Virus record (IMG/VR): IMGVR_UViG_3300025141_000627
Location: 1-26,372 of that record
Source: a virus
Length of the DNA: 26,372 nucleotides
Direction: 5' to 3' (one strand)
The notes under the pieces were generated by a model. The model was not told the origin of the DNA and did no database searches. It saw nothing but the letters and a program-made list of their open reading frames with translations. Below are positions 7,668 to 26,372 of this stretch, one piece after another; within the stretch, counting starts at the first letter, position 1, and each line of letters opens with the position of its first letter. The translations under genes were made by a program, and so were the position numbers.

Positions 7668-10242
7668 ACAGATTATAGAAATTAACCCTTTCCATGGTGG
7701 TCTTAATAACAATGGAGACCCAAGAGATATAAGAGTAGAAGAACTATCTCAAGCCCAAGATATAATGGTAGATGAGATAGGTAAAGTACGAACAATGGGC
7801 AGTCATGTTGCTCATGATGCTGGTTCTAAATCAGTAACTATTACTGAAGGTCATGGTTTATTTTATTTTTCACATGATAGACTGGGAGCTCAAGATGCTC
7901 CCGCAGCTGGTAATGCGACTGGTGACGATTATTTAGCATTAGCTAATTCAGACGCAGGTGCAGATATTGAGATATATTCTAATGAAGATACTAGTTGGAG
8001 CTCAGGCGCTAGAATAGTATTAGGAGATGGCACCAGCGATGCGGGTATGAAAGCTGTTTATTATTACGCTGATGGTAATTTAAGAGTAGGGGATGGAGCT
8101 TTTGGGTCAGATAAAAGAGTACAATGGTATGGATATATAAATAGACAGTTTTACGGAGATGGTTCGACTGGGTATGGTACTGGAGATGCGGATAATGGAT
8201 GGATTGTAAATACATGGCACACTGGGAATGCTAGTTTAGAACCATTAAAAGCTCAAAGAGTTATGGGGTTTTTTGGGGCAAGTCAGTCCCCAGATACTAC
8301 AGAACCAGTAACAATAGACGTTGATGGTGGTTCTTTATCTTATAGGGATTGCTCTGGAGATGCTAAGCCAAAAAGTGAAGATGATACAGTTAAGTTAAAA
8401 GTAACTTGGAGTGCTGCTGCTGATAGTGTTACAGATGCTTCTGACACGACAGGTGGTTTTACTTATTTTTGTTCAGCAGGCGATACCTTAATTTTTCATG
8501 GTTCAACAGCTAATGATAAGGTTATGTTTACAGTTAAACTTGTTACTACTACTGTTATATTTTTTAATGAAGCTGTTACTGGGAGTGAAGCTGATGATAC
8601 TCCATTTTGTTATAATCTTTCAAAAAGCTTATGGTTTAATTCAGAGTATCCAAATTTTGAATTTGCACTAAGTACTTTATATGATGATGAAAAACAAGAA
8701 TCTCCTCTTTTTATTTGTGAAGATATATATTGTAATTACGATGGGAATTTTATTGATAAAACTGGAGCTAGTGGGGGAGCTGGTTCAACAGCATCCTCAT
8801 TAACTCCTCATGATATTGTAAGGGCTAGTAATGGTTTTGGAAAATTAAAAATAGATTTTCATACTTTTGCAAATTTTACTGGTGATTCTACCGATGGGTC
8901 AACTGGGTTACACGATGTTAGCCCCCGAGTTTCTGGTTTTAAGATATATATGAGAAGGGAGGGTCAAACTACTTGGTATTTGCAATCTGAAATAGATATA
9001 ACCAAAGGTGGTAAATGGTTTGAAAGAGGCGGTTATAATATGTGGGATGTTTCTGAAGAAATTTCCAACGCCGCTCACTGTGAAGGAGAATACACAGAGT
9101 CTATGAGGCAAATTGAGACTTATGAAACTGAGACTGGATATGACCAAGAGAATCCCAATATTGGATTTAATGCAGATGGGTTAGGGTTTAAAACTGCTGT
9201 TGTAGCAAATAGAAGAGCTTATGTGGGTAATGTTTCTATTAAAGATGAGTCTGGGATAGTTCATGTTAAACCAGATGCTATTTTAAAGTCTCGTGTTAAT
9301 TCGTTTGATGCATTTTCAATAAGAGATATAATTGAAGCTACAGTTAATGATGGTAGTGATATAGTTAAACTTGAAGAATATGCGGATAGATTGCTTGAAT
9401 TTAAAAAAGATAAAATGACTTTAATTAATATATCCCAAAGTGTAGAATTTTTAGAAGATACATTTATGCATAAAGGAGTTGCTGTTCCATCCGCTACTTG
9501 CAAGACAGATTATGGAGTTGCTTGGGTGAATGAGAATGGTTGCTATTTATATGATGGTAAACAAGTAAATGATTTACTTGAGAAAGGAGGGATGCAAATT
9601 ATTAAAGAAAGTGAATGGCGTTCTTTTATTGGAACCACTCCTATGATTGGGTATCTTCCTAAGAAAAGACAACTAATTGTAGCTAAATCAGCTGGTACTG
9701 GGTCAGGTAATGGTGATATTTATCTATATGATTTAGTTACTAAAAGCTGGGTACAAGGTGATTCAAAGCTAACAGATAACCAAATACAAACAAACTTTAT
9801 TACAGATTGGAATGGGGATTTAGTACACGCTCATACAAGCACCACTGGTACTGTAGTTAAATGGGATGATGCATCAGCTGCTACTTCTAATTTATTATTT
9901 GCTACAAAAGATATGACATTTGGTCAACCGGGACAAAGAAAGAAACTTCATAAAGTTTATATTACATACAAGGGAGATGCTAGTTCTTTAGTAGTTAAGT
10001 ATGCTATTGATGGTGAAACAGATTCAAGTGATTTTCTACAATTTAATAGCACTGATACTCCTTTAGCTGATAAAAGTTCTGCTGAAAATTTAGAGTCTTG
10101 GCATCTTGCAGAATTAAAACCTACTACATCATCTGATGCTAATAATCTCTATAGTGCAAAATTCCATTTAAGTGGCACTGCTGGTGCTGGTTTTGAGATT
10201 AATGATATTAATGTAGTATTTAGGATGAAAAATATAAAATGA
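7660..10242 (+). CDS. tail structural protein, probable beta-propeller-type (860 aa)
   Basis: A large soluble virion protein. The N-terminus (IIEINPFHGGLNNNGDPRDI, then EELSQAQDIMVDEIGKVRTM) is typical of phage tail or stabilisation proteins that begin by folding back on a hub. The middle (about 520-680) holds strand-rich blocks such as RRAYVGNVSI, KLEEYADRLLEFKKDKMTLI, TDYGVAWVNENGCYLYDGKQ and IYLYDLVTKSW, a repeat style seen in beta-propellers. The C-terminal 120 residues (FGQPGQRKKLHKVYITYKGD) look like a beta-sandwich. No membrane helix or signal peptide. I infer a tail-tube, hub or stabilisation role of the podovirus type; the family name is not certain. It overlaps the acidic gene by eight bases and the next by ATGA. 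Confidence 0.8.
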   Translation: MPKQIIEINPFHGGLNNNGDPRDIRVEELSQAQDIMVDEIGKVRTMGSHVAHDAGSKSVTITEGHGLFYFSHDRLGAQDAPAAGNATGDDYLALANSDAGADIEIYSNEDTSWSSGARIVLGDGTSDAGMKAVYYYADGNLRVGDGAFGSDKRVQWYGYINRQFYGDGSTGYGTGDADNGWIVNTWHTGNASLEPLKAQRVMGFFGASQSPDTTEPVTIDVDGGSLSYRDCSGDAKPKSEDDTVKLKVTWSAAADSVTDASDTTGGFTYFCSAGDTLIFHGSTANDKVMFTVKLVTTTVIFFNEAVTGSEADDTPFCYNLSKSLWFNSEYPNFEFALSTLYDDEKQESPLFICEDIYCNYDGNFIDKTGASGGAGSTASSLTPHDIVRASNGFGKLKIDFHTFANFTGDSTDGSTGLHDVSPRVSGFKIYMRREGQTTWYLQSEIDITKGGKWFERGGYNMWDVSEEISNAAHCEGEYTESMRQIETYETETGYDQENPNIGFNADGLGFKTAVVANRRAYVGNVSIKDESGIVHVKPDAILKSRVNSFDAFSIRDIIEATVNDGSDIVKLEEYADRLLEFKKDKMTLINISQSVEFLEDTFMHKGVAVPSATCKTDYGVAWVNENGCYLYDGKQVNDLLEKGGMQIIKESEWRSFIGTTPMIGYLPKKRQLIVAKSAGTGSGNGDIYLYDLVTKSWVQGDSKLTDNQIQTNFITDWNGDLVHAHTSTTGTVVKWDDASAATSNLLFATKDMTFGQPGQRKKLHKVYITYKGDASSLVVKYAIDGETDSSDFLQFNSTDTPLADKSSAENLESWHLAELKPTTSSDANNLYSAKFHLSGTAGAGFEINDINVVFRMKNIK

Positions 10243-10421
10243 CAAGACAAGAAAGAATTGCTTTACATAAAAAGCAAGAAAGATTACAAGTTAAAACTGG
10301 TTCTCCAACTACAAATGATTTAAAAGAAGGAGTTCCAGAATTAAGAAAAACATCGGAAGGCGTTGTTGAATATGTTAAACATAACAATGTCTTATATAAA
10401 AAACTATTAGATAAAGCATAG
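10239..10421 (+). CDS. 60-aa small protein coupled to the tail protein
   Basis: A basic N-terminal helix (MTRQERIALHKKQERLQVKT) leads to a compact end (VPELRKTSEGVVEYVKHNNV, then LYKKLLDKA). The E-x-R-x-T-x-E-G-x-V-E-Y pattern followed by Y/H-N-N-x-L-Y looks like a short beta hairpin plus helix that recurs, as far as I remember, in small phage genes and at the ends of phage tail proteins. Its start overlaps the 860-aa gene (ATGA), so the two are likely made together and may sit together in the particle. A virion role is inferred. Confidence 0.7.
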   Translation: MTRQERIALHKKQERLQVKTGSPTTNDLKEGVPELRKTSEGVVEYVKHNNVLYKKLLDKA

Positions 10422-10442
10422 CATTGTTGGTAAATTAGTAAT

Positions 10443-11096
10443 ATGGCAAAGAGTCTCTATTCAGCTTATACCGCTGCTGGCAAATCAGCTGGTCAGTACA
10501 AAGCAAGTTTAACTGAAACATTTAATTGGGCGGATAAGTTTGACTTTATTGGCAAAGAAACTGCTTGGGAAGAAGAGAAGACATCGAGAAAAGTAAAAGC
10601 TATTGGTGATACACTAGAGCTTGTTAGTACTATTGGTGGAGGACTTGCGGATAAAGAAAAATTTGAAGGAAAATTAGGAGCTATGGAAAGTGCTAAAACC
10701 TCGGAGGGCTCCCTGAAATATGGAAAGTTACAGCCAGATACAAGAAGCTTTGGACAAAAATCATGGGATTATTTCTCTGGCAAAGAACAAACATATACTT
10801 TTGGAGAAGGCGACTCTGCTAAAACATTTAGTAGAGCTGGGGTTGAGACTAAAGGAGCACTGTTGCTAGGTGAGAGTATGTATGACGAATGGTTTAATCA
10901 ACAAGAAGGTGGAATGACTACAGAGCCTATAAAGGAAACAAAATTTGAGGGAATGCCAAAATTTGAGATGCCAAAATTCGGTCAAAATTTTCCTAGTGGA
11001 TTTTCTAAGATAGGTAATCAACCAACTAATACGAATACAGGTGATAATTTTTGGTTTACAGATGAAGAATCAGCTGACATAAAGAATTGGCAATAA
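10443..11096 (+). CDS. putative virion protein of the ejection block (217 aa)
   Basis: Unrecognised. The N-terminal half is helical (SLYSAYTAAGKSAGQYKASL, then TSRKVKAIGDTLELVSTIGG) with a small Ala/Gly-rich hydrophobic stretch near 54-66. The C-terminal third is low in complexity, with repeated MPKFEMPKFG-type units and an Asn/Thr-rich tail. Not cysteine-bearing, no clear membrane helix. It heads the run of genes 10443-24681 that look like internal virion or ejection proteins. There is no strong ribosome binding site; the start is the first ATG after a 21-base gap. Confidence 0.65.
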   Translation: MAKSLYSAYTAAGKSAGQYKASLTETFNWADKFDFIGKETAWEEEKTSRKVKAIGDTLELVSTIGGGLADKEKFEGKLGAMESAKTSEGSLKYGKLQPDTRSFGQKSWDYFSGKEQTYTFGEGDSAKTFSRAGVETKGALLLGESMYDEWFNQQEGGMTTEPIKETKFEGMPKFEMPKFGQNFPSGFSKIGNQPTNTNTGDNFWFTDEESADIKNWQ

Positions 11097-11102
11097 AAAT
11101 AA

Positions 11103-11945
11103 ATGAGAAACACATTAGCAAATAAACATTTATCAGAAGCTGCTTTAGGTCGATATGGAGATACTGAAATGTATAAGACTTCTCCATCTGGGCCGGGTAA
11201 AGGCAGAGAATGGCATGTGAATAAAGAAGAAAAAGCTTTAATGAATATGTATGGGTCTGAAGGTGAAAAGCTTGTAGATGCAGTAGGTTCTGGTACAATA
11301 AACCCTTATACGGGTAAAGAAGAAAAGTTTGTTATAACAGCTGGGGTATTAACTGCTATTGCGGCTATTGGTAGTGTTGCTTTAGGGGCATATGAAGGTT
11401 GGAAGTCTGGTAGTACTCAGGAGACTGCCGCAAATAAGAAAATAGAAGCAGCCACATCTGGCATTGCCTCTACTGAAGAAGCCCAAAAAAAATTAGAAGA
11501 ATCTATTGGAGCTAAAAAAGAAGTTTATCAATTAGAATTTGAAAAAGCTAACCAAGATTTAAGTCGACAAGCTGGGTATGCTTCTGAGAAATCAAGAGAA
11601 CAACATGATTCATTAGAGGCTAAAACTGGAATGGCAACTTCTGGTACCGTTGCTAGAGCTGAAGAAAAATCAAGAGAGCGTCTAGGAGCTGAGACAAAAA
11701 GTAGAACTGAAGATTTGATTTCCCAGCTTGGGAGAAACATGGGTGGCCTTATGGAAGAATATGAATCAGAAAAAGCAAGGCTTAAGTCTGAGAAAGAAAA
11801 GTTTCAAAGAGAGGCAGACCTCGCTGAAGAACAATCTGAAGCTTGGTACTTAGGAAAGAATGTTAAAAAAGCACATAACTGGACAATGGGTAAATACAAA
11901 GGAGCTTTTGATAAAGCTAAGGGTATGACAGCTTGGGGACAGTAA
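11103..11945 (+). CDS. putative internal virion/ejection protein with membrane helix and coiled coil (280 aa)
   Basis: Residues about 75-97 (FVITAGVLTAIAAIGSVALG, AYEGW) form a hydrophobic Ala/Gly helix of the kind that inserts in a membrane. From about 105 to 265 the protein is a continuous charged coiled coil rich in Glu, Lys, Ala and Ser, with repeated EKSRE elements. The end (AWYLGKNVKKAHNWTMGKYK) is basic. This layout, a soluble front, membrane helix and long coil, resembles small internal virion proteins (the gp14 group of T7) that leave the capsid and form a channel for DNA. The match is by layout, not sequence. It lies directly before two further ejection-type genes. The upstream leader is A-rich without a Shine-Dalgarno. 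Confidence 0.65.
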   Translation: MRNTLANKHLSEAALGRYGDTEMYKTSPSGPGKGREWHVNKEEKALMNMYGSEGEKLVDAVGSGTINPYTGKEEKFVITAGVLTAIAAIGSVALGAYEGWKSGSTQETAANKKIEAATSGIASTEEAQKKLEESIGAKKEVYQLEFEKANQDLSRQAGYASEKSREQHDSLEAKTGMATSGTVARAEEKSRERLGAETKSRTEDLISQLGRNMGGLMEEYESEKARLKSEKEKFQREADLAEEQSEAWYLGKNVKKAHNWTMGKYKGAFDKAKGMTAWGQ

Positions 11946-11966
11946 TCTTATAAATGGTAATAAATA

Positions 11967-13037
11967 ATGAGTCAAGCACTACAAGCATTAAATAGGATAT
12001 TACAATATCAGCAGCAACGTGATAGGGACGATGTCCAAGAAGCATTACAATTGATGCAATTTGCACAATCATCAAAATTAGCTGAAGCTCAGTTAACTCA
12101 ACAAAAAAGAGCCGCTGATATACAAGTATTTGGTCAATCTCTTGATTTAGTTAGAAAAGAGAATCAACAAATGAAATTGAGCAGTGCATCAAAATTTCTA
12201 CAGGATTCTGGTTTATCTGCGATATACAGCAAATACAAAGATGAAGACAATGGAATAAGAAAGGCTGTACAAGAATTAGCTGGTAAAGAAGGATTCTTTA
12301 AGGATACTAAGACAGGAGTAGACGAAAGAATAGCGGAAGATTTAATATTAGCCACTTGGTCTTCTTATGAAGCGCAAGACCCCGGTTCTATTATAGATAT
12401 AGCTTCTAGATTGCATAATTTAGACGATAAGGAAGCCGCACAAAGTTCTTATAATAAAAAATTACTTAGCTCTTTTAAGGCTATGGGTATTTTTAGCAGT
12501 CAATATGACTTAGATGAGCAGCTATCTAATTTCAAAACAATGAAAGATACCATTGACAATGAAACGATGGTTAGAAAAGAAATTGGAGAGTTCACAAAAG
12601 GTGAGTATGAAATACAAAGAAATTTTAAATTTGTTGATAAAGTTTTAAACAGAATTGAAATAGAAGGACTTACTCCTAGAGGTTTGAAGACAGAAGTGGA
12701 CGATATGACTGGTATTCTCCCACCAGACAAAGTTGTAGCTTATTATCAAAATAAAGAAGCAGATATTGAAGAAAATATATCAGTTAAAGAAGAAGCATTG
12801 TTAGCGACTAAAGACGCAAAAGCTAATATTGCTTTCATGCTTAAACATGGGATGGAAGTTTCAGAAGAACAAATAGCATCAGCAGGTACACCAGAAGCGC
12901 AATTTGAAATTGAGAGTCAATTATCTGAAGAATATGAAAACTTAAGAGTAGCTAAATTGAAAACACAAAAAGTTAAAAGTAGCATACAATCTGATATTGA
13001 AGAAAAGTATCCCGGTTCTTATGATTATGGATTTTAA
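11967..13037 (+). CDS. putative internal virion/ejection protein, all helical (356 aa)
   Basis: An all-helical, Gln-, Glu- and Lys-rich protein without Cys or membrane segments. The N-terminus is strongly heptad-like (MSQALQALNRILQYQQQRDR, then QEALQLMQFAQSSKLAEAQL). A middle region with helices separated by Gly and Pro (about 100-200) leads to another coiled coil. This is a common shape for the second protein of podoviral ejection sets. It sits 21 bases after the 280-aa gene and 6 bases before the giant gene at 13044. The start is the first ATG in an A/T-rich leader with no Shine-Dalgarno. Role inferred from neighbours and shape. Confidence 0.65.
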   Translation: MSQALQALNRILQYQQQRDRDDVQEALQLMQFAQSSKLAEAQLTQQKRAADIQVFGQSLDLVRKENQQMKLSSASKFLQDSGLSAIYSKYKDEDNGIRKAVQELAGKEGFFKDTKTGVDERIAEDLILATWSSYEAQDPGSIIDIASRLHNLDDKEAAQSSYNKKLLSSFKAMGIFSSQYDLDEQLSNFKTMKDTIDNETMVRKEIGEFTKGEYEIQRNFKFVDKVLNRIEIEGLTPRGLKTEVDDMTGILPPDKVVAYYQNKEADIEENISVKEEALLATKDAKANIAFMLKHGMEVSEEQIASAGTPEAQFEIESQLSEEYENLRVAKLKTQKVKSSIQSDIEEKYPGSYDYGF

Positions 13038-13043
13038 TAATCA

Positions 13044-16000
13044 ATGGCTGATTCATTAACAGATAAATATATTGCAGATTTAGAAAGAAAAATTCGAGAA
13101 AGAAATCAATCTAAATCTCCTTCTTTAAACCAACCCCAACAACAAGGCGTAAGCCTTTATGAGCAACTCTCTTCTGAGTTTGTACAAGAACCCGATATAG
13201 TTAATAATAAAAAATCTGGAGCATTACATGGTGTAGGTGCATTAATGTGGAACGCTTTAGACAGCGCCTTAATTGGAGTCCCCGGTTTGGCATATGAAAA
13301 AGCCACTGGAGAAGACAGACCTTATAGATTGGCAATAGAAGGAGAGAGTGATGTTGAAGGATTAGCAACTTTTGGAGCTGCGGTTGGGCAAGCAGCTGGA
13401 TTTTTAGTACCTATGGGATGGATTGGTAAAGGTGCGAGAGCAGTTGTTTCAGCTACAAATAAAGCTGGGACTGCAAGAATGATAGGGCATGCTTCTACGA
13501 AAGGAGCTCAGGCGGCTAAAGGGTTTGGTTTAAGTAAAGAAGTCGCTCAAAAAGCAATTTCAAAAGGACTGAACGACTCTAAGCTAAAAGGCCCAATAGG
13601 CCCATTGTCAAAATATGAATTAAGTTTTGAAAAAATGGATGAAGTTCAAGGCACATTAAGGTCTTCTATTTTTGATTCAATGGCGAGAGAATTTGGAGCT
13701 GACTCACCTAATAAAGTAAGGGAATTACATAAAATAGCTGACGTAGCTACAAATGCTTTAAAAGACAATGGTGTACATATAAACAATGTAAGTAAAGTTG
13801 TTGAGAAAGCATTGAACTCTACGTTTAGTGTCTCAAATCAAAGCAAACTTACATCCTATGTTGCGAGAGCGGCTGAGCAAGCAGTCACTTTTGGAACTTA
13901 TAATTTATTGTATGACGGTTTCCAATCAATAGCTGGTGAAAAAGACTTTGACCCTGTGGGTGATGTTACTTCAGCTTTAATATTCTCATCAATACTTCCT
14001 GCTATAGATTTGATTGGAGGAGGCGGAAAAGTCCATGTGATGAGGCAAGCTAAGAATTTATTTAAAACTACTAGAGATGTAAAGAAAAGAGTTAGAACGG
14101 GATTTTATGATGACCTTAGCGAGAAAGAAGTTAATGGTTTACTAAGAATTTTATCTAGAGATAATTATCTTGAAGATACTTTAAAAGCAAAAGCCACTTC
14201 TTATGTCTCCAATACAGATACTATGATACCGAAAAAGAAAGCTTTAAAATATTTGAAAGAGATATATGCTAAAGCTGACATTGATAGTATGTGGGGAGCT
14301 TTTAGAAAAGAAGCAAAGGATGATTTTACAGCTTCGCTTGGGAGGATGTTTGTTGGAGGTTTAATATTTGATTTAAATGTTATGCTTGATTATAATTTAA
14401 TTAGGGCTTTGCCGGGTGATGAGATATTATCTCACATGCTTGTTGGGGCCGCAATGTCTAAAATTCATAGACCACTACACAATGAACCATTTCGGAATTT
14501 AACTAATTTTGATAAAAGAGTTAGGGCTTTAGAATACTTTGGATTAGATGCTAAATCCATGGAACATTATGGAATGTCTTTTGGAACAGATGTAGATATG
14601 GGAGCTACTTATTCTGGTTTATTAGAAAATGAAAACGTAAAACAAATAGAAAATATATTTGAAACAGATGAGCATAGACAACAACAAACTGGAAAAAACA
14701 AGAAAGGTGAACAAGTCGATGTTGGAAAACCTGTCGCTGATAGAGATAATATAACAAGAAAACATCAACTTGCTTTATATGGACATGAATTATATAAAAT
14801 GGTTGCTCTTACTAGAAATATTTCTGACCCAAGAGCTGATGATAGTCACATAAGATTAGAAAATTTAACTGAAAATCAAATAGCAAACATAGCTTCAAAG
14901 CTTTCTGAAATTGATGTTTTTATAAATAAAAAGAGTCAAGATGATGGAAAAACAGAAAAGCTTTCAATCCATAACTTTGATGATTTTCAAGAATATACAT
15001 CTGGAGTTGCTTTAGAAAATATAGCCATAGAACATCTTAAAGCTATAAAAGATATAGCTGATTTTGAGGGGATGAATTTAAAATATGAACCTGTAGATGC
15101 ATTTAGTATAGACAAACCTTTTAGATTAGGTTCCTTAGATGATGTGATGGCTTCTCTTGAAAATAAAAGAACTAAACCAGAAAATCTACCATTACGTGAG
15201 CTTCATAATATTATTGCAGAATTAAAAAATGCTGAGTTAATAGAGACATACAAAGAAACATCTGACCAAAGGAAACAATTAGAAAATATAGAAAATATAG
15301 AAAATGTAGAAAAATATATAAATGAAAGATTGCAAGTTTTAAATGACAAAATAATTTTAACAAATTATGGTGAGAACTACCATAGTATGGGAAAAAAATA
15401 TGATTTTATAGATAATCCATGGTTAAGTGAAGTTAAAAATTATAAAAATGTCAAAAAAAGAAATTCATTATTTCATATAGCTGAAGGGAGTCTTCATAGA
15501 TTAAACGAATCACAAAGAGACCTTTTTAATATATTGCAAGAACAATTTGGAAATAAAGTTCCTAAAATATCTGAAGGCGAAACAGTTAGAGTTGAGCTTC
15601 CTACAGATATTAAAGATTCTGATAAAAAGAAAATATTAGACCCATATAATGATGAAGGATTAATTAGTGTTCAAAATCAATTAAATCATTTAGCAAGAAT
15701 TTGGGGGACTGGAGGTCAAAAGTCTACAGGAGATTTGCAAGTAGCGAAAGATGGAGTTGTTCCGTGGGAAGATGCTCTATCAATTATTAAGAAATTTAAT
15801 AATCAAGGGTATGTCATTACAAAAGAAATGGCAGATTTCCAACAAAGATGGCATTATGCTAGAATACTTAGGTCTCCGCATATTACTCCAAGACATATTG
15901 CTATTATAGAAAGTATGAAAGAATCTGGTTTTGCAAATTTAAAACCAAGAGATGGTGTAAATAGTGTTCTTGAAATTCCAAATAGAGATGCAATTAAAAG

Positions 16001-19000
16001 GGGTTTGGTTGATGATAATTATAAATCAGATACAAAAGAATATAGAGATTTTCTAAAAAAATATGACAAATCTATGGAAGCTTTGCGAAGAGTGACTGGA
16101 GATTTTGTACAAGTAGAAACTAAAATACAATTAGACCAATTTAAAGATATAGCAAGCTCTATTAATGAAATGTACAGGTCAACATTTGCATTTGATGAAC
16201 AGTTTATTAATGAATATAAAGAAGTAGTAGAAAGCAACCAATTTAATATAAAACAACTTTCAGATTTACAATCTATTGTAGACAAATTATATGTTGATGT
16301 TGATAAAAAAGAAAGAAATCCCGTAGATAATAAAGAATTACATGATGATTTAATTTTAAAAATTAATAAAGTATTAAAAGACCCCCCATCTGGAATGGAT
16401 AAAAATTTTGTGGCAAATCTTGAAGATTTAAAAAGGAATATTGGGGATGAATTTCAAGACGAACAAACACTACGGGGAGTGACTACTGTTGGTAAGACTC
16501 TTCAAAATATTATAAATGATTACGTACCTCAATATATGGCTCAAAATAGAGCTCTAGATAACATTTTGTTTAATAGTGAGTCCTTCTCAACGGATAGGAT
16601 GCAATTTGTACCAAGAAACGATAGGATGATTAAAAGGCTTATTGATTATTTAAATAAAAATTTCGATGTTGTAATGCCTGAAGCACCCAGTTTCAAACAA
16701 ATTATTGATGAATATAACAGGCATGGTAAAACATCAGAAGTTACTAAAAAACTTGTTAATCATTTAGAAGTCTGGGAAAGAGGATATAATGAAACGGAGT
16801 ATTTTAAATCCCAAGCTGAAGAACAAGCAAGGTTTGGAGACCCCTCAACTTTATTTTCAAAAAAGCAACAAGATGTTTCTCCATCTAATATATCAGCTAG
16901 GTATGAAAGATATAATGAAAATCTAAGACATGATAATTTTAGAGAATTAACTGAAGCTCATTATGAAAATCACAGGTTGTCTTTATTTGCAGAAACACCA
17001 GCTGATAGAAAAATGTATAGAAAAGCGGCTGAGGAATCTAGAGATAATATAAGAGATGAAGTAGAATCAGCTATATATGAAAAGCATGGAGTTGAAATAG
17101 GAGTTAATGAAAAAGATATTCCTTCTAAATTAAAAGACGAATTAGAATCTTTTAGAAAAAATACATATTTACCTTTAATTCTTCAGCAGATGGGCCGTGA
17201 AATGGTTCCAACATTTAAACTATATCAAGACAGTGATGGAGCTGGGCTTGAGATGTCAAAAACATTTGTAGGCAATGGATTACTTGCTGATTTTAGAGCA
17301 AGGATGAGGCAGATTGATAATGAAGGCGTTATGGGCAAAGACGGATTTGATATTGTAATGCTTGAAAATAGTGGAGTATGGAAAGGAAATAAAATAAATG
17401 TAAATCAAATAAAAAATATACAAGAATTAATTAATGAAGCTGTCATTACAACCGAATCGTATAATGCAGTCAAGCAAGGTCTTCAAGGGAAGGCAGACGA
17501 AGCTCAAGCAGCTTTTGAGCATAATAAGTATGTAGATAATTCAACATTCCAAAACCCTGTTAAGGTATCAGTTAGTCATAACGTTTCTTTAATAGTATCA
17601 AAAGGTCAACTTCAAGATGGAAGATTAAATAGGCAATTCAAAAATTGGTATGATAATAAAATAGAACTTTTGAAAAAGAATAAGCCTGAAGGCTATGAAA
17701 GAACAATAAAACATTTTGAAATTATATACGGAGATTTTCTAAAAGACATCGTAGATAAAGATGGAAAAGATGTTGAATACAATACTCCTAAACCAGATAT
17801 TAAACAAATGGTCAGAGCTATGTATTGGGATAGTTTATCTTCTGATGGTTTTAATGACGTAATAAACGCAGCTAATAATAGTCAGACTATGAATAGCCTT
17901 GGTTCAAGCTTTTTTAAATACGTTGTTTTGGGAGAAGCTACCGGAGCTAAGACACAAGCTCAGCAAGAATTTTTAAGAATAGCATTAGAAGATGATAAAA
18001 AAATAAATATTTTAACTGATAGACAAAAAGAAGCTATTAGCAATTATAAAGATAAAGATGGGTTTAATTTAGCTGGAATAGGTGATGAGATGGATGGAAG
18101 CCCTCTCAATGCTAATTATATTGTGGAGAAGGCATTACAAGATATGGTAGATGGTGGTCAGGTGGCTAAAGATATGATTCCAAAAATTAAAGATGTTTTA
18201 AAAAGTTTAAATAGCTCATCTGTTAATGCTCAATCTTATTTAGGACATGATGCTGCTAGCATACTATACTTACATAAAGGAAGAGATTCTGAAGATGCTA
18301 AGTTCGGTACAGCTGGAGTAAAACCAACTGGATGGTTTAATGATGGAGTTGAAAGCGTATTGCTTAAAACTAATTTTGTGTATGATAAGAAGATTGCAGA
18401 TGTCATGCAAGAAGCGGAAATAGATATATTAACAAATCAATCAGCTCTAAAATCATTTTCAAAAGACCATATAGAAATAACTAAAAACGAAGTTGATGGG
18501 GCTTGGTTTAAAAAGAGAGACCCTCTCGGTATGGTAGAGCTTGCTTTGGGGCCTGGAAAAGTTAAAGAAAACAACATAGCTAAAATGAAACTTGAAAATT
18601 TATTTTTAGGTAAAGTTGAAGACCAAAAAACTCTAACAAATATTACATATGCATTAACAGACTTTATGAATGACGCTGGTTATCAATCGTACATGAGTAA
18701 TTTTGTAGGTTATGAACAAAAATTAAAAAATAGACTAGGTAAATTAGGAGATGTTGTAATTGGGACTGGTGATAGGTATGCAAGTACAAATTATTTATTA
18801 AATCAATTAAAGGAGGCTGATGCATTATTTGAAAATTCTTCGGATGGATTAACCGAAATGATAATAAGAGCGGGAGCTGACCCTAATTCTCTTTTAGTTA
18901 ACCCAGCTATACAGAGAATAGCGGCAAGAGGGGTTATAAATGCTTTAAGAAAGCCTAAAACAGAAGGAGCCTCTTACTCAGTTTTAATTCCATATATAGA

Positions 19001-21983
19001 AGGCTCTATGCCTGTTTATAGCAATATTGATGACCCAGCAAATAGAAAACAAATCATAGCTGGTGGTAAAAAACTTTCACATTTGGATGGTCAGGTTGTA
19101 GTGGATGATGTTTCTAAAGTTCAATATCTTGTAAATATAACTAAAGATGGTATAAATAGGGATGTTCAAATAGGAAGGCATAAGGATGAATGGACTATAG
19201 AAGACCCCTATGAAACAGTTGTTCTTGATGATTTAAAAAAAGAAATAAAAGTAATAAAGTCAAATGAAGATAAATATATAGGAAATGATTTAAAACTATA
19301 TAAAATTCATGATGAATTAGCAAACCATAATAATACTACAAAATTAAAATCAAAATTATTCTTACACTCTCTATCTTTAAGGATGCCGAATCTAGGAGGA
19401 GATGTTGCTGTGCATAGAGTTGAAGGATTTTATGACCAAGAGCAGGGGAATGTTGTTGGTATAAATGCTTTTGATATAGCACTTATACACCAAGCTGACT
19501 TTGATGTTGATATGTCATTTAGTTACAATTTAAAACCAACACAATTATCACATTCTGTTTATAATTTAGCTGGGGCTTCTCTCGATGCATATGTTTTCCC
19601 GTCAGATGATTTTTCAATGGATTTTCTTGGGATGGGAGATAGAATGGGAAGAGCTGGTTCTGGGTATGAGACTGGAGATAATCTTGATACACATATACAG
19701 AACTTTCACCAATCTAAAAGGAATTTTGGGACTGTTAAAAAATTATCGACTCAAATATCAGCTTTAATGAGACAGCCGGATTTAATTAATATTCCAGACG
19801 TAGAAATGGTCAGACAAAAAGACAAGGCAGAGTATTCTACTTTTTTACAGGGTTATAAAAATACATTACAATCTATTATAGACGCAGTTAAAGTTCCAAA
19901 TTGGGCAAGTAAAGCAGATGCCAGCCTTATAAAGAAATATATATTGTTTGGAGGTGAGGGCATTTCCGAAAGTCTTAAAATAGATTTAAAGGGTACTGGG
20001 GATAATGCTTTTGCGAATGATAATATAAGAAGAACTCAGGAAGAATTTAAAGGATTTTTCAAATTAGACAAGGATTTACCGAAAGACGAAAAAGAAATCA
20101 TTAAAGATGCTTTAATTGAAATGGTTGATGTAATGTCTCTTCCCCAAAGAGTTTTGACTGATGTATGGGATGAGTCTGGTAGAAGACCACCAGATGCGAA
20201 TGAAATTTCTCATATAAAAGGTGAGTTAGATGATTTTTATGATAGTCCTAATAAATACATATATGATAAATTAATTGATAGAAATTTTGGTAAAAAAGAC
20301 AAACTCGCATCTATACATAAGTTTTATTATGGAGATGTTTTAAATAACCTAGAAGATTGGAGAAAGGTTTGGAAAAATCCCAAACAATATGTTCCCAAGA
20401 GAGATTTTATTAATATAAACCCAGATAATATTAAATTATTAAAAGACAATACGGTTGGTTCTTTTATTGTTTCTAGATTTAATAGCAGTCAAGCATCTCT
20501 TCAGGGATATTCAGATAAATATACAAAACCTGATGGTTTGGATTCTAGAAATGCATCTAAAAGAATAATGCAAAGGATTGATGATGTTTCAGCTTTATCT
20601 AATTTAGATACTCATGAAAAGATAAGAACATTTTTAGATAATGATGAAAATATTAGTGGGACATTTCTTGATGAGTACTCTAATCACCTTAAAGGTGACC
20701 AAATTATTAATGAAAAGTATGTAAGACAATCATCTCTTATGATGGCTAGCTTAAAACATGACCAAAGAAGCATTATGCATTATATTGAAAATGCAAATGC
20801 TAACGCTCCAAGTCGTCAAATTGAAAGAGCCTCTAGAAGATTGATGAGAACAGAAGCTTTGTTAGACCATATATCTAATAAACAAGCAGAACATATTGAG
20901 AAAATCGGTGAGAAGGATGACTTTAGAGAGTATGGAGTTCAAAGAATGAAATTAGGTAGTTACAGACCAATTAAAAATCCTAGATTAAATAAAGATACTC
21001 ATGTTTATAGGAAAGTTGTTAGAAATGGAAGAACGCATATGGAATATGCTGGCTGGATAAGACCCGGTGGCGATTATTCCTTTGATGCTGGTGAATATTA
21101 TCTATTAAAAAATCCAGTTTCATACGAAGCTATGAATAAAAGAGAGTTTTTAGATGGATACTCATTCTTGTTTACTACTGGGGATGTGCAGATAGAACAT
21201 TTATTTGGACATGCTAGTAAAAACCAGCAAGATAATTTCATTGAGAGCTGGGATAGTCTCAAAAGAACTATTGGGAGAATGACTTCTGAAACATTTAAAC
21301 AAAATAAAAAGAACCCTTATTATAAAGAAAATTGGCAACTTGCTAGGTATCAAGAAGATGCTATAATTAAAAACTTTATAGATAAAAATTTAAGATTTGT
21401 ATCTGGCTCTAATGATAAGGGTGAAATAAACAGCACTTCAATCGCTAATTTAGCAAGATACATGATGAAACCTTCTATAGTACCGGGCAAATTCGTATTA
21501 GCTGACGCTGGGAATATTAGGCTACCATCTTTTAAAATTAATCAAAGAATGGTAAAAGCTGTTTCAAGATATTTAGTAGAAAATGGTCATAGGGATTTGT
21601 TTGAAAACATAATGAAACAGTATGGTAATGAATACAGGAGAAGATTAGACAATATAATGCCAGAAGATACAGAATCTTATTTTAAAAGTAATTTTACAGA
21701 TTATAAAGATGAGAATTTCTGGAGAAATTTAGATAATCCAGCTTTAGAATTGATGCAACATACTGGCCAGTTGTATAAGTTTCCTCATTTAAGAGCTCAT
21801 TGGAGTGAACCATTATCAAGGAAGGCTGACGTGTCAAAAAATACTATTGACATACATGGTAATTTAAAATTGATATATAAATTTGGTACTTATGACCAAG
21901 TATTACAAAAAGAGCAGTATGAATTTTTCTATGAAAAAGAAAAGTCAGTTAAAGAAAAACAAAAGGATTGTGGCAATGTATAG
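13044..21983 (+). CDS. giant virion protein with probable DPBB-type RNA polymerase core (2979 aa)
   Basis: The largest gene of the window. The N-terminal 130 residues contain two hydrophobic or amphipathic stretches (about 65-84, GALMWNALDSALIGVPGLAY; 106-128), typical of ejected proteins. Charged helical regions follow to about 1650. Residues 1728-1732 (NAQSY) open a region with K1775 (LLKTNF) and K1803 (SALKSF). Then R2113-M-P2115, G2119-D2120 and ADFDVDM with D2152, D2154 and D2156. In multisubunit RNA polymerases RxP followed by DFDGD marks the catalytic barrel binding Mg2+; in crAss-like virion polymerases the Gly is replaced, as here by Val. I infer an injected single-chain RNA polymerase. 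The C-terminal 700 residues are unassigned. Its last 8 bases overlap the next gene. The virion role is fairly sure, the polymerase role moderately so. Confidence 0.75.
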   Translation: MADSLTDKYIADLERKIRERNQSKSPSLNQPQQQGVSLYEQLSSEFVQEPDIVNNKKSGALHGVGALMWNALDSALIGVPGLAYEKATGEDRPYRLAIEGESDVEGLATFGAAVGQAAGFLVPMGWIGKGARAVVSATNKAGTARMIGHASTKGAQAAKGFGLSKEVAQKAISKGLNDSKLKGPIGPLSKYELSFEKMDEVQGTLRSSIFDSMAREFGADSPNKVRELHKIADVATNALKDNGVHINNVSKVVEKALNSTFSVSNQSKLTSYVARAAEQAVTFGTYNLLYDGFQSIAGEKDFDPVGDVTSALIFSSILPAIDLIGGGGKVHVMRQAKNLFKTTRDVKKRVRTGFYDDLSEKEVNGLLRILSRDNYLEDTLKAKATSYVSNTDTMIPKKKALKYLKEIYAKADIDSMWGAFRKEAKDDFTASLGRMFVGGLIFDLNVMLDYNLIRALPGDEILSHMLVGAAMSKIHRPLHNEPFRNLTNFDKRVRALEYFGLDAKSMEHYGMSFGTDVDMGATYSGLLENENVKQIENIFETDEHRQQQTGKNKKGEQVDVGKPVADRDNITRKHQLALYGHELYKMVALTRNISDPRADDSHIRLENLTENQIANIASKLSEIDVFINKKSQDDGKTEKLSIHNFDDFQEYTSGVALENIAIEHLKAIKDIADFEGMNLKYEPVDAFSIDKPFRLGSLDDVMASLENKRTKPENLPLRELHNIIAELKNAELIETYKETSDQRKQLENIENIENVEKYINERLQVLNDKIILTNYGENYHSMGKKYDFIDNPWLSEVKNYKNVKKRNSLFHIAEGSLHRLNESQRDLFNILQEQFGNKVPKISEGETVRVELPTDIKDSDKKKILDPYNDEGLISVQNQLNHLARIWGTGGQKSTGDLQVAKDGVVPWEDALSIIKKFNNQGYVITKEMADFQQRWHYARILRSPHITPRHIAIIESMKESGFANLKPRDGVNSVLEIPNRDAIKRGLVDDNYKSDTKEYRDFLKKYDKSMEALRRVTGDFVQVETKIQLDQFKDIASSINEMYRSTFAFDEQFINEYKEVVESNQFNIKQLSDLQSIVDKLYVDVDKKERNPVDNKELHDDLILKINKVLKDPPSGMDKNFVANLEDLKRNIGDEFQDEQTLRGVTTVGKTLQNIINDYVPQYMAQNRALDNILFNSESFSTDRMQFVPRNDRMIKRLIDYLNKNFDVVMPEAPSFKQIIDEYNRHGKTSEVTKKLVNHLEVWERGYNETEYFKSQAEEQARFGDPSTLFSKKQQDVSPSNISARYERYNENLRHDNFRELTEAHYENHRLSLFAETPADRKMYRKAAEESRDNIRDEVESAIYEKHGVEIGVNEKDIPSKLKDELESFRKNTYLPLILQQMGREMVPTFKLYQDSDGAGLEMSKTFVGNGLLADFRARMRQIDNEGVMGKDGFDIVMLENSGVWKGNKINVNQIKNIQELINEAVITTESYNAVKQGLQGKADEAQAAFEHNKYVDNSTFQNPVKVSVSHNVSLIVSKGQLQDGRLNRQFKNWYDNKIELLKKNKPEGYERTIKHFEIIYGDFLKDIVDKDGKDVEYNTPKPDIKQMVRAMYWDSLSSDGFNDVINAANNSQTMNSLGSSFFKYVVLGEATGAKTQAQQEFLRIALEDDKKINILTDRQKEAISNYKDKDGFNLAGIGDEMDGSPLNANYIVEKALQDMVDGGQVAKDMIPKIKDVLKSLNSSSVNAQSYLGHDAASILYLHKGRDSEDAKFGTAGVKPTGWFNDGVESVLLKTNFVYDKKIADVMQEAEIDILTNQSALKSFSKDHIEITKNEVDGAWFKKRDPLGMVELALGPGKVKENNIAKMKLENLFLGKVEDQKTLTNITYALTDFMNDAGYQSYMSNFVGYEQKLKNRLGKLGDVVIGTGDRYASTNYLLNQLKEADALFENSSDGLTEMIIRAGADPNSLLVNPAIQRIAARGVINALRKPKTEGASYSVLIPYIEGSMPVYSNIDDPANRKQIIAGGKKLSHLDGQVVVDDVSKVQYLVNITKDGINRDVQIGRHKDEWTIEDPYETVVLDDLKKEIKVIKSNEDKYIGNDLKLYKIHDELANHNNTTKLKSKLFLHSLSLRMPNLGGDVAVHRVEGFYDQEQGNVVGINAFDIALIHQADFDVDMSFSYNLKPTQLSHSVYNLAGASLDAYVFPSDDFSMDFLGMGDRMGRAGSGYETGDNLDTHIQNFHQSKRNFGTVKKLSTQISALMRQPDLINIPDVEMVRQKDKAEYSTFLQGYKNTLQSIIDAVKVPNWASKADASLIKKYILFGGEGISESLKIDLKGTGDNAFANDNIRRTQEEFKGFFKLDKDLPKDEKEIIKDALIEMVDVMSLPQRVLTDVWDESGRRPPDANEISHIKGELDDFYDSPNKYIYDKLIDRNFGKKDKLASIHKFYYGDVLNNLEDWRKVWKNPKQYVPKRDFININPDNIKLLKDNTVGSFIVSRFNSSQASLQGYSDKYTKPDGLDSRNASKRIMQRIDDVSALSNLDTHEKIRTFLDNDENISGTFLDEYSNHLKGDQIINEKYVRQSSLMMASLKHDQRSIMHYIENANANAPSRQIERASRRLMRTEALLDHISNKQAEHIEKIGEKDDFREYGVQRMKLGSYRPIKNPRLNKDTHVYRKVVRNGRTHMEYAGWIRPGGDYSFDAGEYYLLKNPVSYEAMNKREFLDGYSFLFTTGDVQIEHLFGHASKNQQDNFIESWDSLKRTIGRMTSETFKQNKKNPYYKENWQLARYQEDAIIKNFIDKNLRFVSGSNDKGEINSTSIANLARYMMKPSIVPGKFVLADAGNIRLPSFKINQRMVKAVSRYLVENGHRDLFENIMKQYGNEYRRRLDNIMPEDTESYFKSNFTDYKDENFWRNLDNPALELMQHTGQLYKFPHLRAHWSEPLSRKADVSKNTIDIHGNLKLIYKFGTYDQVLQKEQYEFFYEKEKSVKEKQKDCGNV
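15282..15317 (+). repeat. short in-frame tandem repeat (GAAAATATA)
   Basis: Four tandem 9-base units, GAAAATATA and near copies, encode a short E-N-I repeat inside a charged helical part of the giant protein. The unit length keeps the frame, so slippage would lengthen or shorten the helix without breaking the gene. Confidence 0.6.
19380..19511 (+). other. candidate RNA polymerase catalytic segment (RxP ... GD ... DFDVD)
   Basis: The segment codes for residues 2113-2156 of the giant protein: R-M-P, a GGDV turn, HRVEGF, a short strand pair (GNVVGINAF), then ADFDVD. R to the first catalytic Asp spans 39 residues; in E. coli RpoC the comparable span (R425 to D460) is 35. RNAi-type polymerases share the order R-x-P, GD, D-x-D-G-D. 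The three Asp would bind the catalytic Mg2+. Confidence 0.65.
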
Positions 21984-24681
21984 TGTTTGTTCAAATGTAG
22001 GAGACCAAGAAAGAAATACTAGAAATAGTCTTGGCAAGCTTCGTCAATTATTTAATGGTGATAATGTTGAAATAGATGGGAAAAAATATAATATTGGAGA
22101 TTCTATTTCTAAGTATTATGGGAAGACAGATTCTGATGGATTTGGGGAAAAGATGTTTGATGAAATTGTTTGGCGTTCAACTTATAAACCAGCTTTTGAT
22201 TCTTATACCGATTTTAAACCGGGTGACTTCAAAAGAATAAAAAATGAAATAATAAAAGAATCTAAGAATCTAAACAATCCTAAATTAAATTATCTAGAAA
22301 GATATGGGTTTGTTAGAAGAGGTGTAATGCAAAAATTTGCAGTTACTAAATATATGAATGATAAGATTAATCAAGTTGCTAGTTATGAACGTAATCAATT
22401 TCAAAAATATTTAAATAGTCACATTGAGATAACGGGATTATTAAGAGCAGAAATTTTAGCAAAAAATGGAAAATCTAAATATTGGCCATCTGAAATGACA
22501 TGGAAAAAATTAGAGAAATTAGAAAATGATTTAATTATTGCTACAAGTGACCCAAATAAGATTAATAGAGCACAGAATATTTCAGAAGAAATTGCAAAGT
22601 TACTGGATTCAGAAGGAGGTAAAGTTTTGGAAGACCTCAGGTTATTACTTGAGGGAGATGGTCATTTCGAAAAAAAATCAGTCAAAGTTGGTGGTGAAGA
22701 GGTTGAAAGATGGTTTAAAATTTTAAAAGAGAATACTGATGAGGGGAATATAGGAGATGAAGTTAGAGTTAGTGACAATATAGTTAAAGCCGCTAAAATA
22801 TCAAGAAATTTATTAGATGATATGGGCGATGTCATGATAAGTGGATTAGAACAACATAAAAAAGTAGTTAGACAATTTTATTTAAATACAAATGAATCTT
22901 TATTAACTGAGAGTGGGACAAAAGTAAAAAGATATGAAAAAACAATTAATGAAGAAATAAAAAGAATAAAAGATGGCAAAAAAGGCGGTAAGTACTTTCC
23001 TCACTATCTTGTTGAAGCTATGATTAATATGGAAAGAGTAATGGATAGAGCTGAAAATCCAGAGTCAAGAGATATAAATAAAGATTTGCCAGAATTATCT
23101 GAGATTATTTCAGAAACTCATTTAAAAATGGGGACTCCTTCTTCAACTAAATTTAGAAAGTCTGTTCCTTATGAGAATTATCTTAAAAACCCTATCGGAG
23201 TTATGAGAAAATACTCATTAGATGCTATTTCATTTAATAAAGCAAATTTTTTAAGGAATACATATCAAGAAGGACTGAGAAGGTTGCCAAGAGACGCTGA
23301 TGTTGCTATTGGTTTAGAGAATTATCTTCAGGACACATTTACATTAGCAAATAAAGGATTTAATGACAGGCCTCAGTGGGTAAACAAAACAGTAAGAGCT
23401 TTAACTGGTTTTCAATTTTTAAGTAAACTTGGATTTGGGCTTGGGACAGCAGCTAGAAATACAATGTCTGGTCTTTATTTCGTTCAGGGAGTTGGTAATA
23501 GAGCTTTCTCAAAATATCTTTCTGATTACAGAAATCCAATTAATTCAGATATTGTTAAAAAAATAGAAGATGTAGAAAAAGAAATGGGATTTACTTTTGA
23601 AGATATATCGGCTCCTATTTTTACTGAAGGATTAGTCCCGACTAAAGGAGTTCAAGTAAATGATTTAGATATTAGACAAGATGATAATGGGAATCACACT
23701 CTTCAATATAGAGATGGAAAAACATGGAAAGCTTTTGATTCAGCATTAACTGCAGCTACTGGTAAAGGTGCTATTTTTCAAAGAATGACTGAGAATAAAT
23801 TAAGACAACATATGTTTAGATATTCTTTTATGACTAAATATAATGAATTAGTTAAAGGAGGGTTAAATGAATCTAAAGCCACTGGTAAAGCAAAGAGACA
23901 TGCCGTAGACCAAGTTGGTAAATATGCTTTTGAATACTCAGCTAGTCAAAAAGCTCCAGTTGCAGGTGGAAGCGGTACTAAGTTGGGAGCCGCTGGACAA
24001 ATCGCTTTTCAGTTTATGCACTATCCAATGTCTTTTTTACAACTTCAGTCTGAGGTTTTAAGAAAATCTAAAGATGCCGCTATTGCTGGTCAATGGAGTT
24101 CTCCAGACTTAGTAGTCCCATTAAGGTTTGCTGGCCTATATTTATTTACCGAATTAATGAGTGGTATAGCTAATTTAGACCTTCATAGGTTAATGGAAAA
24201 TGATACAGTTGAAAGAATCCAAACCTTAAAAAAAGCACTAGACGGAGAAGAAGATGTGAAAGGTCGTGGTTTTTTGGGGCCTACAATAAGTGATTTATAT
24301 TTTTATGCAACTATGAACGACTGGATGCAAACGCCAGACCATGTTGTAGCTGATATAATAGTTGGGTATAGTGATGCTTATGGTATGACAGATGAACAAA
24401 AAAGAGCTAGAATGATGTCTACTTTAAATGTTCAAGCTTCTAAGATTATAAATAAAGATTTAAAAGCTTTGAGAAATGGTAATGGCTGGGATGTCATGAT
24501 GCATGAGTTTGGAGTTTATCCTACTAAAGAAACTAGAGAAATGAGGAAAAAACAACCATATAAAACTATTTTCCCAGAGAAAAAAGATAAAAAGGAAAAA
24601 ACTCCAGCTCAATTAAAAGCTCAAAAACGTATAGATAAGGATGTAGAATTAACAAAACTTTATCGAGCGATGGGTATTTAA
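21976..24681 (+). CDS. large putative ejection/virion protein with hydrophobic core segment (901 aa)
   Basis: A large helical protein paired with the giant gene. The frame is open from 21883, but ATG 21976 is the likely start: it overlaps the upstream stop by 8 bases (ATGTATAG) and follows AAAGG at 21962-21966; the earlier ATG would overlap by 101 bases. The first 480 residues are charged and helical. In the last half come an amphipathic hydrophobic segment (RALTGFQFLSKLGFGLGTAA, then RNTMSGLYFVQGVGN), a second one (AGQIAFQFMHYPMSFLQLQS) and FAGLYLFTELMSGIANL. The L-S-K-L-G-F-G-x-G-T-A-x-R-N pattern gives an impression of other large phage virion proteins that contact membranes. The tail is Lys-rich. 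I infer co-packaging and ejection with the 2979-aa protein; no enzyme motif was found. Confidence 0.7.
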   Translation: MYSVCSNVGDQERNTRNSLGKLRQLFNGDNVEIDGKKYNIGDSISKYYGKTDSDGFGEKMFDEIVWRSTYKPAFDSYTDFKPGDFKRIKNEIIKESKNLNNPKLNYLERYGFVRRGVMQKFAVTKYMNDKINQVASYERNQFQKYLNSHIEITGLLRAEILAKNGKSKYWPSEMTWKKLEKLENDLIIATSDPNKINRAQNISEEIAKLLDSEGGKVLEDLRLLLEGDGHFEKKSVKVGGEEVERWFKILKENTDEGNIGDEVRVSDNIVKAAKISRNLLDDMGDVMISGLEQHKKVVRQFYLNTNESLLTESGTKVKRYEKTINEEIKRIKDGKKGGKYFPHYLVEAMINMERVMDRAENPESRDINKDLPELSEIISETHLKMGTPSSTKFRKSVPYENYLKNPIGVMRKYSLDAISFNKANFLRNTYQEGLRRLPRDADVAIGLENYLQDTFTLANKGFNDRPQWVNKTVRALTGFQFLSKLGFGLGTAARNTMSGLYFVQGVGNRAFSKYLSDYRNPINSDIVKKIEDVEKEMGFTFEDISAPIFTEGLVPTKGVQVNDLDIRQDDNGNHTLQYRDGKTWKAFDSALTAATGKGAIFQRMTENKLRQHMFRYSFMTKYNELVKGGLNESKATGKAKRHAVDQVGKYAFEYSASQKAPVAGGSGTKLGAAGQIAFQFMHYPMSFLQLQSEVLRKSKDAAIAGQWSSPDLVVPLRFAGLYLFTELMSGIANLDLHRLMENDTVERIQTLKKALDGEEDVKGRGFLGPTISDLYFYATMNDWMQTPDHVVADIIVGYSDAYGMTDEQKRARMMSTLNVQASKIINKDLKALRNGNGWDVMMHEFGVYPTKETREMRKKQPYKTIFPEKKDKKEKTPAQLKAQKRIDKDVELTKLYRAMGI

Positions 24682-25389: not shown

Positions 25390-25664
25390 TGTGCGTCTCT
25401 CCTGTGTGTATATTTATGCGGGCTCTTTACCCACTTCTTTTTATATGTCGGTCTTTCATACTTATCGCTAAGTATTTCTCCATCAAATAATTCTATTATA
25501 TGGCGATGTTGTTCCAATTCCGACATTTCCGTATTCTTGTATTTACTACAACCTTTTTCCATTGTCTCAATGGGGATTGTTTTGGGTGCTAAATTTTGGT
25601 TCACTTTAAACCAGTTACATTTATTGTTTACTTCAAAGTAACACCCATAACAACTTTTATGCAA
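25386..25664 (-). CDS. cysteine-rich small protein between helicase and resolvase (92 aa)
   Basis: The N-terminal half carries four Cys (C5, C8, C16, C39) in CYGCYFEVNNKCNWFK and EKGCSKYK, which suggests a zinc site or, less likely, an iron-sulfur cluster. The second half is charged with a basic tail (YKKKWVKSPHKYTHRRDAQ). The pattern CxxC-x7-C-x-W-F ... P-x-E-x-x-x-K-G-C resembles small zinc-binding proteins found beside phage replication genes; no defined family. The start is TTG at 25664, with an overlap of 8 bases into the helicase gene; no ATG exists before the first Cys. Its stop overlaps the resolvase start (ATGA). The TTG may keep expression low or couple it to the helicase. Confidence 0.7.
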   Translation of the reverse strand: MHKSCYGCYFEVNNKCNWFKVNQNLAPKTIPIETMEKGCSKYKNTEMSELEQHRHIIELFDGEILSDKYERPTYKKKWVKSPHKYTHRRDAQ

Positions 25665-26372
25665 TATTATCTTTCTCTGCCATAGAAGAGTTCATGTAGA
25701 ATTTGCATCTACCTCCATTGAATCCTACCATATGTGTACCTATCTTTCCATAACGACTCTTAGCAACTATAATCTCACTTTTATATGGATTAAATTTGTC
25801 ACTATCAAAGTTATGCCCATAGAATACAAACATAGCTGATTCAGCAGTTTGTTCAATTACACCTGACTCTGCATAATCACTCATACGTGGTCTAGGGTCT
25901 AATCTCTTTTCTATCTCTCTATTAAGCTGTGATACTAATATTGCAGAGCAATTCTCCTGTTTACATATCCATTTATATTCTTGCATTATCTTTTCTATCT
26001 CGAACCTTCTTCCTTCCTTTACTCCTTCTACTCCTATCAACTGAATGTAATCATCAATTACAATATCTGGTTTATGTTTAGCAATCTCTCTTAAACAATC
26101 ATCAAGACCTCTTATGTTATCATACATAATAAATTCTTTATAATTATTCTTTATCTTATCAGATACTACTTCGAACTCATCCTTATCGTTATCAGATAGG
26201 TCATTTCGTCTTATATCCCCATATTTTAGAGAATTTGAGTCCATCACCACCATCTTCTTTAACATCTCCGTATTGCTCATTTCTCGATTAAATAACATTA
26301 CTCTGTAACCTTGTTCAATAAGACCTTTAACTATGTTTATTACAAGTGTAGTTTTACCATGTCCCGGTCTTC
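25657..26372 (-). CDS. DnaB-type replicative helicase, C-terminal part (partial at window edge)
   Basis: This gene continues past the window edge. It begins in the window with the Walker A loop RPGHGKTT (about 26347-26370), so the internal ATG at 26298 is not the true start. A Walker B-like segment (KPDIVIDDYIQLI), a motif-3 segment (AILVSQLNREIEKR), a PRMSDYAESGVIEQTA segment and a KSRYGKIGT loop follow in the order of the RecA-like domain of DnaB. DnaB-type helicases unwind the duplex at replication forks. Only the ATPase domain is visible; the N-terminal primase-binding domain, if present, lies outside. It leads the minus-strand unit with the Cys-rich protein and the resolvase. The gene ends at 25657 with an 8-base overlap to the next gene. 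Confidence 0.9.
   Translation of the reverse strand, partial: RPGHGKTTLVINIVKGLIEQGYRVMLFNREMSNTEMLKKMVVMDSNSLKYGDIRRNDLSDNDKDEFEVVSDKIKNNYKEFIMYDNIRGLDDCLREIAKHKPDIVIDDYIQLIGVEGVKEGRRFEIEKIMQEYKWICKQENCSAILVSQLNREIEKRLDPRPRMSDYAESGVIEQTAESAMFVFYGHNFDSDKFNPYKSEIIVAKSRYGKIGTHMVGFNGGRCKFYMNSSMAEKDNIA

Follow-up and report, generated by a model that had tools for sequence, protein, structure and literature searches.

A predicted giant single-chain RNA polymerase, probably carried in the virion, in an apparently uncultured phage lineage

The virion RNA polymerase (vRNAP) of phage N4 is about 3500 amino acids (aa) long. It is a giant RNA polymerase (RNAP) carried in the particle of a short-tailed phage (PMC5512222), and it has a T7-like fold and a catalytic core unrelated to the one predicted here. 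Giant single-chain vRNAPs are known in crAss-like phages (reviewed in PMC10136315), including that of phage phi14:2, which is called gp66 in the literature, corresponds to gp077 (AGO48955.1) in KC821624 and is represented by PDB 6VR4. In phage P23-45, the vRNAP gp96 is fused to the tape measure protein and is without a clamp (PMC10770324). Two-barrel families often resemble each other in sequence only around the DxDxD motif (PMC10770324), the same pattern as we see for a 2979-aa protein encoded by a 26,372-nucleotide stretch of viral DNA (hereafter, the window; positions 1 to 26,372 of IMG/VR record IMGVR_UViG_3300025141_000627). We consider it very likely that this protein is a giant single-chain two-barrel RNAP with its core at approximately residues 1500-2480, and its gene position, together with analogy, indicates that it is probably a vRNAP. 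Giant single-chain vRNAPs are themselves already known, and the sequence comparisons place this family outside the crAss-like one. A literature search, with most subscription journals outside its coverage, returned no description of the family.

The protein resembles the phi14:2 vRNAP in being a single chain, in having double-psi beta-barrel B (DPBB-B) before DPBB-A, in its pattern of lysines, and in carrying, after RxP, a DFDxD in which a beta-branched residue replaces Gly. It differs in length (2979 versus 2180 aa) and in the size of the phage genome (~52 kb versus ~100 kb), and its N-terminal part is unrelated as far as seen. Related records are 51-54 kb long, unlike Crassvirales-type genomes of about 90-100 kb. 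The P23-45 enzymes gp96 and gp64 (P74-26 gp62; 8F5M) share the single-chain two-barrel organization but carry DFDGD or DYDGD. RNA interference (RNAi)-type polymerases, such as QDE-1 and plant RDR2, likewise have a single-chain two-barrel fold, but are eukaryotic, use RNA templates too, and show no detectable sequence similarity to the protein.

An invariant catalytic signature

The open reading frame (ORF) and its elements are listed below by window coordinates; clades A to D are the groups of homologues described in this section and in the last one.

13044..21983, plus strand: 2979-aa ORF, predicted single-chain two-barrel RNAP, probably a vRNAP (conservation, profile, model)
13044..14603, plus strand: N-terminal domain, residues 1-520, common to clades A-C (BLAST between clades, invariant residues)
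18225..18242, plus strand: NAQSYL element, residues 1728-1733, aligned with [T]DAQAW of crAss-like vRNAPs (low-stringency hhalign; suggestive only)
18306..18461, plus strand: DPBB-B segment GxKP...LLKTNFVY...DIL..SAxK, residues 1755-1806 (K1760, K1775 and K1803 invariant in clades A-C)
19380..19511, plus strand: DPBB-A catalytic segment R2113-x-P2115...D2152-F-D2154-V-D2156, predicted Mg2+ site (invariance, best profile match, strands in the model)
19716..20192, plus strand: segment after the catalytic loop, with invariant G2229, Q2269, D2280, L2301-F2302 and E2359; a candidate bridge-helix and trigger-loop region

A preliminary description of the window, made from the sequence, had pointed out R2113, P2115, G2119-D2120, D2152-F-D2154-V-D2156, K1775 and K1803. 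All of these residues are present at those positions, and nucleotides 19380-19511 correspond exactly to R2113 through D2156. By itself, the RxP/DxDxD motif is only suggestive of a polymerase. Among 5000 shuffles of the protein, 6.7% contain the bare pattern (RxP, 25-60 aa, DxDxD) and 0.02% a stricter version with [AG]DFDxD. The bare motif is thus not rare in so long a protein, and the case is therefore made from its relatives. Stray DxDxD strings (DVDID, DFDID) also lie at unrelated positions, at about residue 1681 in L132 and in ORF 28290-29372 of G002, so the bare motif is not diagnostic.

Using the full 2979-aa query, a scan of IMG/VR matched a 43.5-kb record of the same virus and nothing else, while the 130 residues around the motif identified nine homologues with 41-55% local identity. 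The string LRMPNLGGD...H-Q-[AG]-DFDVD is invariant in these nine wherever their sequence covers it. Profile searches extended the family to a distant clade B relative (L025; 23% identity), which has RIP...QGDFDVDK, and, among phages with a similar terminase, to the clade C proteins of 2.88 thousand aa, which have RNP...EGDYDADK. The motif thus reads DFDVD in clades A and B and DYDAD in clade C, and identity between clades falls to 16%. BLAST found no relative encoded in public phage records, and a scan of 84,980 prokaryote genomes found none either.

Across the 21 sequences of clades A, B and C, 39 of the 2979 positions are invariant, and these include R2113, P2115, D2120, D2152, D2154, D2156, K1760, K1775 and K1803. 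If invariance were distributed at random, eight named residues would all fall within this set with a probability of about 1e-15, calculated as a simple product; judged from the alignment, invariance of the motif across such deep clades is not due to chance. Residues 2101-2156 form the most conserved stretch of the whole protein. Within it, F2153 and V2155, which separate the three Asp, vary across clades A-C, which fits a site in which nothing but the metal ligands is fixed. The GD element of the proposed signature fares less well: D2120 is kept in clades A-C only, and G2119 is replaced by N in clade C and by S in clade B, making this the weak part of the signature. Addition of clade D leaves 11 invariant positions, including K1803, R2113, P2115 and the three Asp. 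R2113, P2115, D2152, D2154 and D2156 are invariant in all four clades, in every homologue that covers them; loss of RxP or of the three Asp among homologues, which would have spoken against a polymerase, is not seen.

Relationship to crAss-like vRNAPs and predicted fold

The reference set for profile comparison comprised the cores of 11 crAss-like vRNAPs, namely that of phi14:2 (identified as PDB 6VR4) and ten others. In hhalign, the profile of clades A, B and C matches this set with a probability of 94%, an E-value of 1.4e-7 and a score of 76.2, whereas 20 column shuffles score no more than 16.5 and the reversed profile scores 16.6. With clade D added, the probability is 95.6% and the E-value 1.2e-8. 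The aligned block is RxP...DxDxD, in active-site register. A low-stringency full-length alignment is collinear, placing K1760, K1775 and K1803 on lysines of the crAss-like enzymes and NAQSYL on DAQAW. The DPBB-B lysines match the K...K...SxxK pattern of crAss-like vRNAPs, and K1775 and K1803, both singled out in the preliminary description, thus coincide with conserved lysines of the crAss-like DPBB-B.

Comparisons with single sequences were less sensitive. A nine-sequence profile aligned off target with the phi14:2 sequence, a comparison too weak to be informative; single-sequence profile comparison with P23-45 gp96 and gp64 gave alignments out of register, and a profile-to-sequence search of the PDB found nothing.

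We modelled residues 1500-2480 with AlphaFold2 using 22 sequences and no crAss-like rows. The model has a mean predicted local distance difference test (pLDDT) score of 68.8 and a predicted template modelling score of 0.61; an earlier model from 11 sequences had a pLDDT of 54 and no usable barrels. In a Foldseek search of the PDB, the phi14:2 vRNAP (6VR4) ranks first, with an E-value of 1.8e-5 and a probability of 1.00, and is the sole match below an E-value of 0.001; nearly all of the weaker matches listed are RNAPs. VIA-align, in which we treat Z differences below 1 as ties, returned a list made up of polymerases: P74-26 gp62 (8f5m; Z 9.5, 282 residues, 4.7 Å), tied with 6VR4 (Z 8.7), then plant RDR2 (Z 8.4) and QDE-1 (Z 6.8). 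The structural alignments span model residues 430-979. Among the predicted viral structures of BFVD, unnamed proteins rank at the top, with many crAss-like proteins below them. The phi14:2 vRNAP is hence both the best profile match and the top Foldseek match, and a fold with two DPBBs is supported for the core by a model of medium confidence, in line with the preliminary description, which had named the absence of barrels around residues 1700-2200 as grounds for dropping the idea. The predicted order is DPBB-B with the catalytic lysines (K1760/K1775/K1803 region), a long connector, and DPBB-A with RxP and D2152/D2154/D2156.

Proposed function and alternative explanations

Motif conservation, profile homology and the fold match together back the two-barrel polymerase first suggested from the motif. 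That the protein uses DNA as template, is catalytically active and is ejected with the phage DNA is proposed by analogy with the known enzymes, and the virion location and a short-tailed morphology are suggested by the portal and the gene order. The polymerase would be a late product that enters the particle together with neighbouring internal proteins and leaves it with the DNA via portal and tail. It would then transcribe the first genes, those of the opposite-strand helicase/resolvase block, independently of the host RNAP. Later transcription would pass to the host enzyme, as no further phage RNAP could be recognised in relatives; in G003, specifically, no second RNAP-like DxDxD protein was seen. 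The N-terminal domain, with invariant G115, G119, P123, R434, M435, G468 and G500 and four hydrophobic segments by hydropathy (at about residues 64, 104, 308 and 435), possibly has a role in packaging or ejection.

Several observations weigh against this picture. Sequence searches of Pfam, PHROGs, NCBIfam and the PDB give no match to the protein, BLAST and HMMER detect no similarity to crAss-like vRNAPs, and profile A6 matches no crAss genome in an HMMER search. Outside the active-site block, the crAss-like alignment is of low confidence, and clade D taken alone scores marginally (27.5 against shuffles of up to 25.6, and 25.3 against up to 23.8). VIA-align Z values of 8-9 are close to the level reachable by unrelated models and not decisive alone; both barrels contain parts modelled with low confidence (residues 253-270 and 616-657); the superposition on 6VR4 is non-rigid, with a root-mean-square deviation of 15.5 Å over 511 residues. 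Furthermore, the virion location is a prediction from gene order.

This last point bears on the alternative that we take most seriously, although it is improbable: a two-barrel RNAP synthesised inside the cell for the transcription of middle or late genes, comparable to YonO or P23-45 gp64. P23-45 does have a non-virion enzyme of this type (PMC10770324), and presence of the 2979-aa protein in the virion is deduced from gene position. That position, however, is between tail or internal virion genes, on the late strand and opposite the replication block, and, as in giant virion-packaged RNAPs, the protein is nearly 3000 aa long and has a conserved N-terminal domain containing hydrophobic segments. 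Less probable still is that the protein descends from a two-barrel RNAP, has lost activity and is retained for ejection or as a scaffold. In clades A-C, Val or Ala occupies the position of the Gly found in the DxDGD of most RNAPs, which could hint at lost activity, but the three Asp, RxP and Lys are kept at 16% overall identity while their flanks drift, which looks like selection on catalysis. The fourth position of DxDxD is Val in clades A and B, Ala in clade C, Gly in clade D and Ile in the active phi14:2 enzyme; the Gly-to-Val change, for which a crAss-like parallel had been proposed from the start, is tolerated in the family and is no argument against activity.

Explanations that place the protein outside the two-barrel RNAPs fare worse. 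It is quite implausible that it is another DPBB enzyme, such as a PolD-like DNA polymerase, or a structural protein with a chance motif. The shuffling frequency of the bare motif leaves room for chance, PolD has two DPBBs as well (PMC10770324), and family A DNA polymerase was found in none of 11 related records, G003 among them, in a search whose control worked. The invariance, the profile match and fold matches to single-chain RNAPs spanning both barrels nevertheless argue for an RNAP, and PolD is absent from the structure matches listed, where a weak similarity is still possible. An N4-type (T7-like, single-subunit) vRNAP would have a similar size and role, and the terminase is weakly similar to those of N4-like phages, but this identity is largely refuted by the profile and fold matches, which leave it hardly any probability. 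Specifically, the fold matches are two-barrel RNAPs, and N4-type RNAP is not among the structure matches, weak similarity being still possible. A Pfam search gave no RNA_pol match, and neither did a genome search with PF00940, in which the positive control was silent as well.

If the protein is a two-barrel vRNAP, virion-type enzymes of this class would reach beyond crAss-like phages and one Thermus phage group, into a separate lineage with many IMG/VR relatives, whose polymerases current family libraries leave nameless. Its deep clades would also show what catalysis needs: three Asp, RxP and Lys fixed, with the Gly/Val/Ala/Ile position free.

Genome context and exchange of the polymerase gene

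The polymerase gene is the largest of a late-strand structural block and is followed by a 932-aa ORF; a resolvase-DnaB block lies on the opposite strand. Its neighbours in the window are:

7660..13037, plus strand: 860-, 217-, 280- and 356-aa ORFs upstream of the RNAP gene, probable tail or internal virion proteins
21883..24681, plus strand: 932-aa ORF directly downstream, same putative cassette as the RNAP gene, with which it travels
25657..26370, minus strand: DnaB-like helicase, partial in the window, opening the opposite-strand replication/early block

With the upstream ORFs read in this way, the RNAP gene belongs to the late structural cluster. The 43.5-kb record encodes, upstream of the window, a terminase, a P22-type portal, a scaffold and an SU10-type capsid protein. 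Related records also have an SU10-type major capsid protein, and their best portal and terminase matches are not crAss-like phages. Relatives of the window phage terminase are encoded in at least 567 IMG/VR stretches, so the lineage is well represented there and apparently uncultured. One relative, G003 (L031-L033; ~51 kb), appears to be circularly permuted and almost complete, with a fibre gene split over the record ends.

Head and replication genes are well conserved in several relatives in which the RNAP and the downstream ORF differ deeply. In G007, G008 and G011, the terminase is 88-91%, the portal 75-78% and the capsid protein 64-68% identical to those of the window phage, yet the RNAP belongs to clade C, with 22-31% identity to the window RNAP over 4-15% of its length. 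In G003, the terminase is 70% identical, and the RNAP is of clade A and alignable over 96%. In G006 and G010, the terminase is 88-89% and DnaB 85-87% identical, and the RNAP locus encodes a protein of 2.5-2.7 thousand aa with RWP...QADHDGD. Compared with polymerase, this giant protein aligns in the right register, only marginally above shuffles. We considered the giant protein of G010, G006 and G012 as a replacement lacking a polymerase motif and rejected this, as it carries DHDGD. The locus proteins at L137:7140-15344 (minus strand) and L140:3-7595 (plus strand), which contain RWP...QADHDGD and VDNAKE beside a terminase 88-89% identical, are a probable fourth polymerase clade (D) that keeps RxP and has the canonical Gly (DHDGD), with two members in the final scan. 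They also have a GNAT-like stretch at 1228-1289, below the cut-off.

BLAST hardly recognises the polymerases of clades A, C and D as relatives of one another, and the simplest reading of these sequences is that the RNAP gene and its downstream ORF are swapped as a cassette. We think it likely that, in a large lineage of uncultured ~52-kb phages, one fixed locus encodes an unrecognised two-barrel vRNAP and that this gene, with its downstream partner, forms an exchangeable cassette. If so, a phage that exchanges the polymerase acting on its first genes would have to exchange its early promoters as well, or would escape a host factor or defence aimed at the incoming polymerase, and exchange on a near-constant backbone of head and replication genes would make early-transcription switching and co-movement of promoters testable. 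When two related genomes were searched for recurring promoter-like elements of early genes, nothing but short repeats at a chance-like level turned up.

Two further genes of the lineage were noted. A SET-domain protein, unusual in a phage, is encoded just before the large terminase at L027:3341-3781 (Pfam SET, E-value 3.6e-7, above the cut-off). At 439-4293, the window encodes a 1284-aa fibre with many NTAVGYxA-type repeats and a C-terminal S74 intramolecular chaperone.

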